Positions 635 to 18,035 of a DNA stretch of 19,535 nt are shown here, one piece after another. How positions within the stretch are numbered: the first letter of the stretch is position 1; each line of letters begins with the position of its first letter. This DNA is from Thermoanaerobacteraceae bacterium (lineage in GTDB: Bacteria; Bacillota; Desulfotomaculia; Desulfotomaculales; Ammonificaceae). A program made the position numbers and the translations under genes. The notes beneath the pieces are model-generated. The model searched no databases. It saw only the letters and a list, made by a program, of their open reading frames with translations, and was not told the DNA's origin. The DNA lies in assembly GCA_030016455.1 (NCBI GenBank), contig JASEJH010000004.1, positions 1 to 19,535 on the forward strand, in the 5' to 3' direction.

Positions 635-1564
635 GTGCACGAAGTCAACGATGCGCTGTTGGAGTTAATCGGGAACACACCCCTGGTCGAATTGGCGAGA
701 ATCGCCGCCGACCTGCCGGCCAGGGTAGCGGCGAAGTGCGAATGGTTTAATCCCGGGGGAAGCGCGAAGGACCGGCCGGCGTGGTGGATGCTCCAGGACG
801 CGCTGGCGAGGGGATTGATCCGGCGTGGGGACACGATTGTTGAGCCCACCAGCGGCAACACCGGTATCGCGCTGGCCTGGCTCGGGGTGCGGCTCGGCCT
901 GCGGGTGATCCTCACCATGCCCGAGACGATGAGTGAAGAGCGCCGCAAACTCCTGCGGGCGCTCGGTGCTGAGGTGGTCCTGACGCCGGCGGCGGAAGGG
1001 ATTCCGGGTGCGGTTCGTTGCGCGGAGGAGATTGCAGCGGCGGCGGGGGCGTTCACCCCGAACCAGTTCGGCAACCCGGCCAACCCGGAAAGCCATTACC
1101 GGACCACCGGACCGGAGATCTGGCGGGATACGGAAGGACGGGTAGACATTGTGGTCGCCGGTGTCGGCACCGGCGGCACCCTCACCGGCGTTGCCCGGGC
1201 GCTGAAAGAACGCAAACCCGGGGTAAGAACGGTCGCCGTAGAGCCGGCGGAGTCACCGGTGCTTTCCCGCGGTGTAGCCGGGAAGCACGGTATCCAGGGA
1301 ATCGGTGCGGGGTTTGTGCCACAGGTGCTGGACAGGGATTTGATTGACGAGGTTTTCCCGGTGCCGACGGAGGCGGCGTGTGAGATGGCGCGGTCCCTGG
1401 CGGTGAAGGAAGGAATGCTCACGGGTATTTCTGCGGGAGCAGCCTGTTTTGCGGCTCTTTCCGTGGCCGGGCGTCCGGAGAACGCGGGGAAGCTGGTGGT
1501 GGTGGTCTTTCCGGACGGAGGCGAACGTTACCTTTCCACAGGCTTGTTTGATGATGCAGGGTAA
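635..1564 (+). CDS. cysK: Cysteine synthase (O-acetylserine sulfhydrylase)
   Basis: This cytoplasmic PLP enzyme makes L-cysteine from O-acetylserine and sulfide. The 309-residue length is normal for the CysK/CysM family. The N-terminus [13 protein letters not shown] is characteristic. NPGGSAKDR carries the PLP lysine, about K45. [11 protein letters not shown] is the substrate-binding loop, and GTGGTLTG is the PLP phosphate-binding loop. [10 protein letters not shown] and GISAGAA are also conserved. I chose the GTG at 635 because GGAGG lies six bases upstream and the family homology starts there. The frame is open further upstream (to 587), but those residues do not look like CysK. The downstream gene begins only 16 bases after the stop and is probably co-transcribed. 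CysK versus CysM or a cystathionine beta-synthase-like paralog cannot be settled by motif reading. Confidence 0.93.
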
Positions 1565-1580
1565 GAGGGAGAAACCCGGC

Positions 1581-2048
1581 GTGAGCGAGGGAATGCTTCT
1601 GGTGGCACTCGGCTGCGGCCGGCTGAAAGAGATTTTCGACATCGCCTCAAGGCACCCCTTTGTCGTTTTCGGGACGATGGACGGGGAAGTTTTTGCGGGC
1701 CTAGCGGCGCGGGGCCTGCTCAAACGGGCGGCGCGGCTCCCGGTTTACTTTTACGAAACCGGGTGAATCGCCCCGCGGCGGGTGGTTGCCGTCGGCAGCC
1801 TGGCAAAGATCTGGCTTGGACTTCCGGAGGACATTACCGTGCCGGAAGAACTGCAAAGGGCTTTCGAAGACTACTTCGGCGCGGAATGGAACCAGGTGTT
1901 AGTGGGGGCCGAAAAACCTTTCGGCTACCACGCCGCCAACAACGCCTACTTCGCGGTGGAAGGACTTTGGCCCGTAGAAAACCTGACCCTGACCGAGTTG
2001 CTGGAGCGAGAGAAGGTGAAACTGTCTGCCAACATCATTATCAGTTAG
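1581..2048 (+). CDS. Unknown protein with in-frame TGA (candidate selenoprotein, or a gene broken by a nonsense mutation)
   Basis: Two open stretches lie in the same frame, separated only by TGA at 1764-1766. Read through, they give a 155-residue protein with the TGA at residue 62 (context FYETG-U-IAPRR) and a cysteine at residue 12 (LGCGRL). I chose the GTG start because AGAGGGAG lies nine bases upstream; ATG 1551, overlapping cysK, is an alternative. I do not recognise the family. Three points favour selenocysteine over a stop. The frame is maintained on both sides. No good ribosome-binding site precedes the next start, GTG 1782. A seven-base-pair hairpin with a GTC loop follows the TGA at the right distance for a bacterial SECIS. 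A second TGA-containing gene occurs in this window, which suggests the organism decodes UGA as selenocysteine. The main alternative is a recent CGA-to-TGA mutation or sequencing error, which would restore Arg. A role near cysteine metabolism is only a neighbour-based guess. Confidence 0.5.
1784..1800 (+). promoter_or_regulatory. Candidate SECIS hairpin after the TGA at 1764
   Basis: GGTTGCC (1784-1790) pairs with GGCAGCC (1794-1800) in seven base pairs, one of them G-T, around a GTC loop. The loop begins 25 bases after the TGA and starts with G. Bacterial SECIS elements are known to be short hairpins just inside the coding region, with a G among the first loop bases. The stem resembles that of the E. 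coli fdhF SECIS. A hairpin this size can arise by chance in GC-rich coding DNA. Confidence 0.42.
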
Positions 2049-3175: not shown

Positions 3176-4546
3176 CTACCGGGTGGCAAAGGCTTTTTGG
3201 GCCGCGCTTTCGGCGGCCACGGTGAGGTAGTAGTTGGTCGGCGCGGCGGTGAGCAGCGGGTGCGTCCCCATCTGGAAGGAGGCGATCTGGTCGTGGGTCA
3301 TCCGGTTCAGGATGCAGGCAGCGATGACGTTCACCAGTTCACCGACGCTTTCGCCGCCCATTGCCTGGCCGCCCAGGATTCTTCCCGAATGCTTTTCGAA
3401 TACCAGCTTTACTTTCGTTTCCTTCACTCCCGGTATTACTTTAGGGTGCCGGTTGGGAGAAGAGGCTTCGCCTACCAACACCGCGTAGCCTTCGCGGCGG
3501 GCAAGCTCTTCCGTGAGACCGGCGGCGGCCAGGGTGAGTTTGCCGACTACTGTTGATACCACGCCGATCACCCCCGGGTTCTCGCGGCGCACGCCGTACA
3601 GGTTGGCTACCACCGTCCTGGCCTCCATCGTCGCCACCGAGGCCAGCCGGGTATGGCTCGGTTTTCCCTTGAAAAACGAGATTTTGGCGGCGCAGTCCCC
3701 GCAAGCGAAAATGTTCCCGTCTTCGGTTCGCATGGTCCGGTCGACCCAGATCCCGGCCACAGGGTCGGCCCGGAGTCCGGCCTGGATGGCCAGCTCGACG
3801 TTCGGCCGGACGCCTGCCGCAACGAGAACCAGGTCCGCCTTGAGTTCTTCGCCCCCGGAAAGGCGTACACCGGCGACTTCTTCCCCGCCGGTTATCTCCG
3901 CCACCTTTTGGCCGGTCAGGAGCTTGACACCTGCGGCGGTAAGTTCCTTTTCGGCGGCGATGCAGAAGGGCTCGTCGAAGGAAAGCGCCAGGCAGTGGGG
4001 CAGGACCTCGACGATGGTGACGTTTTTCTCGCTGTACCTGCGGATCTCCTCGGCGAATTCCACGCCAATGAAACCGCCGCCGATGATTACCACGTCCTCG
4101 GCTGCCTTCAAAGCGGCGAGAAACTCGGCGAGCGCCTCCGGGTTTTTCCGGATCGTGAAGACATTCTTTCTATCCGCGCCGGGAATCGGCGGAATGGTTG
4201 CCGTCGAACCGGTGGCCAGGACCAGCCTTTCGTAAGCTATCGCCGGGCCGTCGCTCAGGATCACCTTGCGGGCTTCCCGGTCGATGGCCGTCACTTCGCC
4301 CTCGACCAGTTCAATACCTTCAAAATCCAGCACCGCGTCCGGAACGAGATTTCGTTCCACCGCGCCGATGGTGCCGAAGAGGTAGGGGATGCCGCAGGGG
4401 ATCGGTACCGGGGAATCGCGCCGGATCAGAACCACGCCTTTATCAGGGTAATAACGCTTGGCCACAGTAGCGGTGGTAAGGCCTGCTACGCTGCCGCCGA
4501 GGACCACTATGTCCGCCGCTTCCGGAACCGGGAAATCTTCGTTCAT
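3176..4546 (-). CDS. FAD-dependent pyridine nucleotide-disulfide oxidoreductase (NADH oxidase / CoA-disulfide reductase-like)
   Basis: A 456-residue flavoprotein of the NADH oxidase, NADH peroxidase, CoA-disulfide reductase and persulfide reductase group. IVVLGGSVAGLTTA near residues 13-26 is the FAD-binding fold. C51 in PIPCGIPYLFG sits where this group has its single redox-active cysteine. VVIIGGGFIGVEFAEE is the NAD(P)H-binding fold. IFACGDCA is the second FAD motif. The C-terminal third is the dimerisation domain. There is no CxxxxC pair, so it is not a classical dithiol reductase. The ATG at 4546 has AAGGAAGGTGAT close upstream; the frame extends 12 codons further without a better start. 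It follows thrC by 45 bases and is probably co-transcribed. Likely substrates are oxygen, peroxide, CoA-disulfide, polysulfide or persulfide; the sequence does not decide. Confidence 0.88.
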   Translation of the reverse strand: MNEDFPVPEAADIVVLGGSVAGLTTATVAKRYYPDKGVVLIRRDSPVPIPCGIPYLFGTIGAVERNLVPDAVLDFEGIELVEGEVTAIDREARKVILSDGPAIAYERLVLATGSTATIPPIPGADRKNVFTIRKNPEALAEFLAALKAAEDVVIIGGGFIGVEFAEEIRRYSEKNVTIVEVLPHCLALSFDEPFCIAAEKELTAAGVKLLTGQKVAEITGGEEVAGVRLSGGEELKADLVLVAAGVRPNVELAIQAGLRADPVAGIWVDRTMRTEDGNIFACGDCAAKISFFKGKPSHTRLASVATMEARTVVANLYGVRRENPGVIGVVSTVVGKLTLAAAGLTEELARREGYAVLVGEASSPNRHPKVIPGVKETKVKLVFEKHSGRILGGQAMGGESVGELVNVIAACILNRMTHDQIASFQMGTHPLLTAAPTNYYLTVAAESAAQKAFATR

Positions 4547-4591
4547 TTCATCACCTTCCTTTGGATTGCAGTACACGAACAACCTCTGGGT

Positions 4592-17451: not shown

Positions 17452-17691
17452 AACCTTTTAACCCTTTCCCGAAACCGTGCTCCGTGGGACGCAGTGGCCG
17501 GAAAAAGCCTTCATCTGCGGCCCGGCACGATTTATCTTCTATCTTACATTATAAAGCCTTTCTAACCCGCTGGAATATTTCTTTGTCAAGACCATAAGCG
17601 GGGGTGGAGAGTCTCCCTCCTCCTTCTTTTTTCCATATGAGGTGTTATGGTAGTATTACAAGAAAGACAAAATAGAAGGGGGGTGGGGTAC

Positions 17692-17907
17692 GTGTCTCAG
17701 AAGGTTCTGATTTTCGGGAAAGAAGGGTGACCGTACACGAAGGCTGCCCTGGATGCTTTCGCCAAGAAAGGGGTTGCCTACCGCTACCTGGACGTGAAAG
17801 AAGACCCCGGCGCGATGAAGCAAATGCTGGACTATTCGGAAGGCCGGAGGGCGGTGCCCGTAATCGTAGAGGGCGAGAAGGTGACCATCGGTTTTGGCGG
17901 AACCTGA
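17692..17907 (+). CDS. Glutaredoxin-like selenoprotein (UPYT active site)
   Basis: A 71-residue thioredoxin-fold protein read through a TGA at 17728-17730. Before it is SQKVLIFGKEG, a first beta strand. The active site is then U13-PYT, where glutaredoxins have CPYC. AALDAFAKKGVAYRYLDVKEDPGAMKQML is the usual helix-strand-helix. RRAVPVIVEGEKVTIGFGGT supplies the cis-proline (VP), last strands and glycine-rich end. The match to glutaredoxin on both sides of the TGA, at exactly the catalytic residue, argues strongly for selenocysteine and against a broken gene. Known anaerobe proteins of this type have U or C at that position. The GTG start follows a purine-rich AGGGGGGTGGGG. A SECIS-like hairpin lies just after the TGA. 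It is a single-gene unit. Redox partner and substrate are unknown, and automated annotation often misses it. Confidence 0.9.
17738..17761 (+). promoter_or_regulatory. SECIS-like hairpin of the glutaredoxin selenoprotein
   Basis: CGAAGGC (17738-17744) pairs with GCTTTCG (17755-17761) in seven base pairs including one G-T, around the ten-base loop TGCCCTGGAT. The loop begins 15 bases after the TGA and has G at its second position, consistent with general rules for bacterial SECIS elements. Confidence 0.6.
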
Positions 17908-18035
17908 GGAGTTTAGGGGCGACCGTGCGTCGCCGCGGAAAGTGGTTGCCGGGGATCCTGCTCATCTTGAAAGCGGAAGTCTTCGGTCCTCGGCACCCAC
18001 AAGTTTAAAATGGGCTGTTCAAGGGGTAAAGGTTG

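Follow-up and report, generated by a model that had tools for sequence, protein, structure and literature searches.

The DNA analysed here (the window) is a stretch of 19,535 nucleotides from a Thermoanaerobacteraceae bacterium whose draft genome is 80.55% complete. On the plus strand, a reading frame is open from a GTG at 1581 to a TAG at 2046-2048, and a TGA at 1764-1766 is its sole in-frame break. When the TGA is read through, the frame encodes a protein of 155 residues (1581-2045) with selenocysteine (Sec) at residue 62. The original prediction, made from the letters of the window, had described two open stretches in one frame split by this TGA only, a second half without a good ribosome-binding site and a protein of no recognised family. 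All three points were borne out: the frame is as described, the 3' half can first start in frame at the GTG at 1782, where the upstream site is poor by eye, and no Pfam or NCBIfam family matched the window protein at E values up to 1. When 31 members of the family were compared with the same two collections, only single-member matches with E values of 0.0049 to 0.1 were obtained.

Taken together, the comparisons described below indicate that window 1581-2045 very probably encodes a genuine, conserved and uncatalogued selenoprotein; this confidence applies to the selenoprotein and not to its ligand. The 2026 catalogue of 119 families and subfamilies contains, in the available part of its Table 1 (PMC13188914), no entry identifiable with this family and no domain named ASCH, EVE, YTH or PUA. 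A literature search, with most subscription papers and bioRxiv outside its coverage, found no description of the family. The features of the locus are listed in Table 1.

Table 1. Features at the selenoprotein locus, in window coordinates
Feature	Position	Strand	Basis
Predicted selenoprotein gene, 155 residues, Sec62, stop TAG 2046-2048	1581-2045	+	reading frame and 52 genome loci
Predicted Sec-UGA codon	1764-1766	+	TGA in the same alignment column in 52/52 genome loci
SECIS-type hairpin, 7-bp stem 1784-1790/1794-1800, loop GUC 1791-1793	1784-1800	+	conservation and published geometry
3' half held in the protein collection (P0024), 88 residues from GTG 1782; same gene	1782-2045	+	P0024
Probable ribosome-binding site (purine-rich) for the selenoprotein gene	1565-1574	+	sequence inspection
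cysK (cysteine synthase A), immediately upstream; a neighbour in the window only	635-1564	+	TIGR01139; start 635 by eye

Conservation of the TGA codon

The read-through protein was first searched against 60 relatives. The family was found in 29 of them, with exactly one TGA in 29 of the 31 matches. The alignment of these 31 rows (A1) was then used to search the order of the window, where the family was present in 46 of 113 genomes; a class-wide search covered the same 113 genomes. The 50 matches in the order were 46 main copies with one TGA and four others, namely two non-Sec paralogues, a degenerate copy with two TGA codons and a fragment of 40 residues. In a sample of the phylum, 8 of 398 genomes matched, all from the window's order. 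A relative in a metagenome-assembled genome (MAG) titled Deltaproteobacteria (L031) pointed to a second class, which was the coverage beyond the phylum. There the family was found in 6 of 85 genomes; every main copy had one TGA, and one genome also had a partial match lacking a TGA.

The gene was located in each fetched locus, and the resulting 52 genome loci (alignment A3) are 26-59% identical to the window protein. Exactly one in-frame TGA was present in all 52, in the same alignment column. This pattern is far beyond chance. Sec62, A70, G72 and W103 are the invariant columns. In 14 close pairs, the rate of nonsynonymous changes (dN) was below that of synonymous changes (dS) in 27 of 28 half-gene comparisons, with one dS undefined. 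A second, degenerate-looking copy of the gene with two TGA codons (L090, G016:C252:4799-4942) lies about 3 kb from the intact copy in its genome.

The original prediction had set TGA or Cys at this position in aligned homologs as the test for Sec. TGA was found in 52 of 52 genome loci. Cys was found in none of these loci and in 4 of 60 protein matches (P0005, P0017, P0019 and P0020, all metagenome or MAG proteins); the protein searches scored the 8000 best-word candidates, so that more Cys forms may exist. Among the 60 protein matches, 37 are pieces of at most 112 residues. The 23 longer ones have W (17), Cys (4), Ile (1) or Ala (1) at the site. The Ile form is P0021 from Thermodesulfitimonas autotrophica and the Ala form is P0023, and these two non-Sec paralogues come from genomes that also carry a Sec copy. 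The Ile-bearing copy (L105, G001) lies about 17 kb from the Sec copy; the Ala-bearing one (L106, G000:C21:2977-3420) is a second copy in the window's own genome. When the clade that is richest in non-Sec forms served as the query, one further relative was obtained, P0175, with neither Sec nor Cys at the site by eye. A change of a CGA codon for Arg into TGA, named as the main alternative in the original prediction, fails because Arg was found in none of the 23 full-length protein matches.

Trp at the site had been expected to refute Sec. It does occur in 17 of the 60 protein matches, all from contigs of 0.9-2.3 kb. The W is best read as a TGA that was translated under genetic code 4 by the gene caller, since the 10 of these matches that were placed on the tree group with the TGA-bearing L124 (support 93/81) and P0012 runs on for 80 residues beyond the end of its relatives, the first of them being W.

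The downstream hairpin and the decoding of the TGA

Behind the TGA, the seven-base-pair hairpin with a GTC loop that the original prediction had pointed out does exist. It starts 17 bases after the TGA, and its loop, with G as the first base, is 24 nt downstream of the UGA. The published model of the bacterial selenocysteine insertion sequence (bSECIS), in the available part of PMC13188914, has a loop of 3-9 nt, a stem of 4-16 bp, a G in the first two loop positions, a distance of 16-37 nt from the UGA and a minimum free energy of at most -7.5 kcal/mol. The hairpin conforms to this geometry with a 3-nt loop, a 7-bp stem, a spacing of 24 nt and G as the first loop base in 47 of 47 members.

These 47 members lie outside one five-member clade and share a stem of columns 21-27 with 31-37, counted from the T of the TGA. 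The stem is perfect in 36 of the 47, compared to a mean of 1.1 and a maximum of 6 in 2000 redraws of synonymous codons, and the mean number of pairs is 6.74 of 7 observed versus 4.51 in the redraws. Ala70 is encoded by GCC and Gly72 by GGC in 45 of 47 members each. The five-member clade has its own shifted stem (15-20 with 25-30), which is perfect in all five (null mean 0.8, maximum 4). Over all 52 loci, double changes were seen in 27 cells versus 6.5 in shuffles, and six slid stem positions each scored below the true one on paired cells and covariation. Two non-Sec paralogues show pairing at 4 of the 6 positions in the stem of this clade; these two sequences are too few to weigh.

The folding energy relative to synonymous shuffles had its deepest dip at the UGA (z -1.12, the lowest of 27 offsets), and the window hairpin alone has -9.8 kcal/mol. 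Whole folds of 54 nt ranged from -9.3 to -28.7 kcal/mol across the 52 loci, and 42 of them contain the conserved stem. Three results limit the support for the hairpin. It reaches -7.5 kcal/mol alone in only 32 of 52 members, the minimum-energy 54-nt fold of the window lacks the conserved stem and prefers a rival hairpin by 1.0 kcal/mol (-18.9 versus -17.9), and 4 pairs show a double change, which is no clear excess (110 of 500 shuffles reach 4). The rival hairpin is at window 1775-1792, with columns 12-18 paired to 23-29 and the loop GUGG. Because the energy threshold is not reached throughout and the fold of the window prefers the other hairpin, the support for a SECIS element comes from conservation and not from the single-sequence fold. 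The codon-level tests are independent of folding energies.

The Sec machinery was searched in the draft genome. SelB was detected with 364.9 bits (cut-off 242), SelA with 588.8 bits (cut-off 268) and a tRNA-Sec with the anticodon TCA with 73.9 bits (gathering score 47). The C-terminal end of SelA lies in another frame: the match at G000:C250:5238-6586, just before SelB, covers the model positions 1-408 and 406-453 in two frames, which looks like a frameshift or an assembly error near the C-terminus. Inside the order, the co-occurrence of SelB with the family carries no information, as SelB exceeds the cut-off in 109 of 113 genomes. A gene at about 17692-17916 (+) of the window, which the original prediction had taken as a certain selenoprotein, belongs to UXX-star selenoprotein family 1 (NF041114, 111 bits, cut-off 72, scanned as 17674-17907) and has two in-frame TGA codons.

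In one genome, a broken gene or an assembly error that turned CGA into TGA, with no full-length protein made, looks just like a lone TGA in an open frame, and this genome is an incomplete draft. The same TGA in all gene-bearing genomes, a dN below dS in both halves, a hairpin kept beyond the needs of the protein and the lack of Arg in full-length homologs reduce the probability of this explanation to virtually nil. An ordinary protein with Trp at the site, made by near-cognate reading of the UGA or by a change of the code, would account for the W matches. It is very improbable, since 14 of the 52 genes end with a TGA stop codon, and TGG encodes Trp103 in all 52 and Trp78 in all 47 that have it; the grouping of the W rows, the overrun of P0012, the four Cys relatives, the Sec machinery and the SECIS-type hairpin also speak against it. 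Two separate proteins, the second one starting at GTG 1782, were considered as the protein collection holds so many pieces. The start is poorly provided with a ribosome-binding site, the Cys, Ile and Ala relatives are single continuous proteins and the structure model folds both halves as one domain, which makes this arrangement extremely improbable.

Predicted fold and possible chemistry

The structure model of the selenoprotein is confident, with a predicted local distance difference test score (pLDDT) of 91.9, and contains both halves in one domain. The protein consists of one small domain and is apparently soluble, and no signal peptide was seen by eye. With middling scores and by fold only, the model resembles PUA-like proteins (ASCH/YTH), and a likeness to the PUA-like superfamily (ASCH/YTH/EVE) is moderately supported. 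Sec62 is located in the modelled loop between the strands 54-59 and 67-78. By the order of motifs, this loop may correspond to the one that follows the conserved Tyr of ASCH proteins, where residues of ZmASCH touch RNA phosphates.

Two observations count against this likeness: the fold Z is within the range where the tool warns of a generic resemblance, and a profile match to ASCH (PF04266) was not found, with hhalign probabilities of 3% and 1.6%. ASCH homology by sequence is ruled out at the profile level. The K, E and R columns that are invariant in the ASCH alignment A7 (K23, E26 and R28) are not present in A3 by eye, and a sequence search of the PDB gave two chance-level matches (E 0.61 and 0.92).

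In the proposed mechanism, SelB and Sec-tRNA(UCA) would decode the UGA guided by the downstream hairpin, a step with comparative support. Sec62, beside a conserved Arg/His66 and the aromatic Y56-F57-Y58, would then form a nucleophilic or redox centre, which might act on a ligand in the cleft, either nucleobase-like or RNA. We consider such an action of this centre possible but doubtful. As a tentative proposal, the family might be the first selenoenzyme with a PUA-like, nucleic-acid-binding-type fold, in which Sec62 would attack or reduce a nucleobase or RNA, perhaps modified, within the cleft of the barrel, and a Sec-first family with rare and derived Cys forms that was missed as discovery starts from Cys homologs.

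A plain thiol/selenol redox or peroxide protein without a nucleic acid ligand, whose PUA-like likeness would reflect a common arrangement, comes close to an even chance. Most characterised selenoproteins are thioredoxin-fold redox proteins, according to the available part of PMC13188914, the fold Z is in the possibly generic range and a Cys lies within four residues of Sec in 19 of 52 members. Against this, no thioredoxin-titled row was among the matches listed (50 VIA rows and 50 Foldseek rows), and no CxxU or UxxC is common to the family. A universal resolving Cys was rejected: the Cys positions vary, and 4 of the 52 proteins have no other Cys. An accessory role in dissimilatory sulfate or sulfite reduction, which is compatible with either chemistry, seems unlikely. 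Within the 113 genomes of the order, with the second class left out, dsrA was over the cut-off in 45 of the 46 genomes with the family versus 30 of the 67 without it, and the 46th, the window's own, has a dsrA fragment at a contig end (149.8 bits). Two families of the order (f8 and f15) account for the association, as Fisher p is 0.15 without them, and no dsr gene was among the 20 neighbour proteins scanned. Any function of the family is inferred.

The genomic context was analysed with up to 8 called genes per side of the 52 loci, which were clustered after a crude gene calling (longest open reading frames), and Pfam scans covered 20 neighbour proteins. One cluster, with a CxxCxxCC protein as the scanned member, adjoins the gene in 12 loci. 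A class IV aminotransferase cluster is one or two genes upstream in 4 loci and a spoIIR cluster two genes downstream in 6. In the window, the selenoprotein gene starts 16 bases past the stop of cysK, which was identified by TIGR01139 (407 bits, cut-off 351, scanned as 626-1564). The original prediction had drawn on this neighbour, which carries little weight because in none of the other 51 loci does a neighbour cluster with cysK. No pathway is common to the neighbours of the 52 loci, and the function was therefore not taken from the context. A link to tRNA 2-selenouridine was also rejected: mnmH is over the cut-off in 69 of 113 genomes, 30 of 46 with the family and 39 of 67 without (p 0.56). 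Window 3176-4582 (-) encodes a protein with a CGIP motif which looks, by eye, like a flavin adenine dinucleotide (FAD) oxidoreductase of the coenzyme A-disulfide reductase type. A catalogued selenoprotein form carries UGxP in the place of this CGIP (available part of PMC13188914, Table 1).

Evolution and comparison with known selenoproteins

A tree of 68 proteins was calculated and rooted at the midpoint only. Sec rows were found on both sides of the root and across the main clades. One clade contains the Ile and Ala forms together with three of the Cys forms, and the Cys form P0005 is near the second-class group. In the simplest reading, Sec appears to be ancestral in the family and the Cys, Ile and Ala forms derived. 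The placement of the window protein with the second-class clade (L124-L129, support 100/96), from a class that includes the MAG titled Deltaproteobacteria, suggests a horizontal transfer of the selenoprotein gene between distant bacteria.

The family adds a conserved member to the catalogue of 119. Cys-to-Sec is the direction more often reported, as far as the available parts of PMC1794560 and PMC13188914 go, and the family runs against it because Sec is by far the commoner state here. According to the available part of PMC12013277, deep-Sep may filter out selenoproteins for which no Cys homolog exists, and every known selenoprotein now seems to have such a homolog. The family exposes a blind spot: Sec-dominated families can be discarded by any method that depends on Cys homologs or on the annotation of full-length proteins. 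If the fold is true, selenium chemistry would reach a superfamily whose members are otherwise known to bind RNA and modified bases. The family is present in cultured strains, namely Desulfofundulus thermobenzoicus DSM 14055 (L032) and, judging by the half-length entry Adeg_0320, Ammonifex degensii KC4, so that it can be tested by re-searching their proteomes.

Compared to the ASCH proteins ZmASCH and E. coli YqfB, the family has no detectable sequence homology and lacks the ASCH-invariant columns by eye. UXX-star family 1 is likewise a selenoprotein of the same genome, but it is glutaredoxin-like and a known family. GrdA, the glycine reductase selenoprotein A, is similar in being Sec-dominated with few Cys forms (available parts of PMC1794560 and PMC12013277); it has a CxxU (available part of PMC13188914), whereas this family has none and does not match the GrdA Pfam model. 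From the prokaryotic selenoproteins catalogued in the available part of PMC13188914, the family differs in having no shared xxU/Uxx motif, whereas it has in common with them a UGA-encoded Sec, a bSECIS-type hairpin directly downstream and the Sec machinery.
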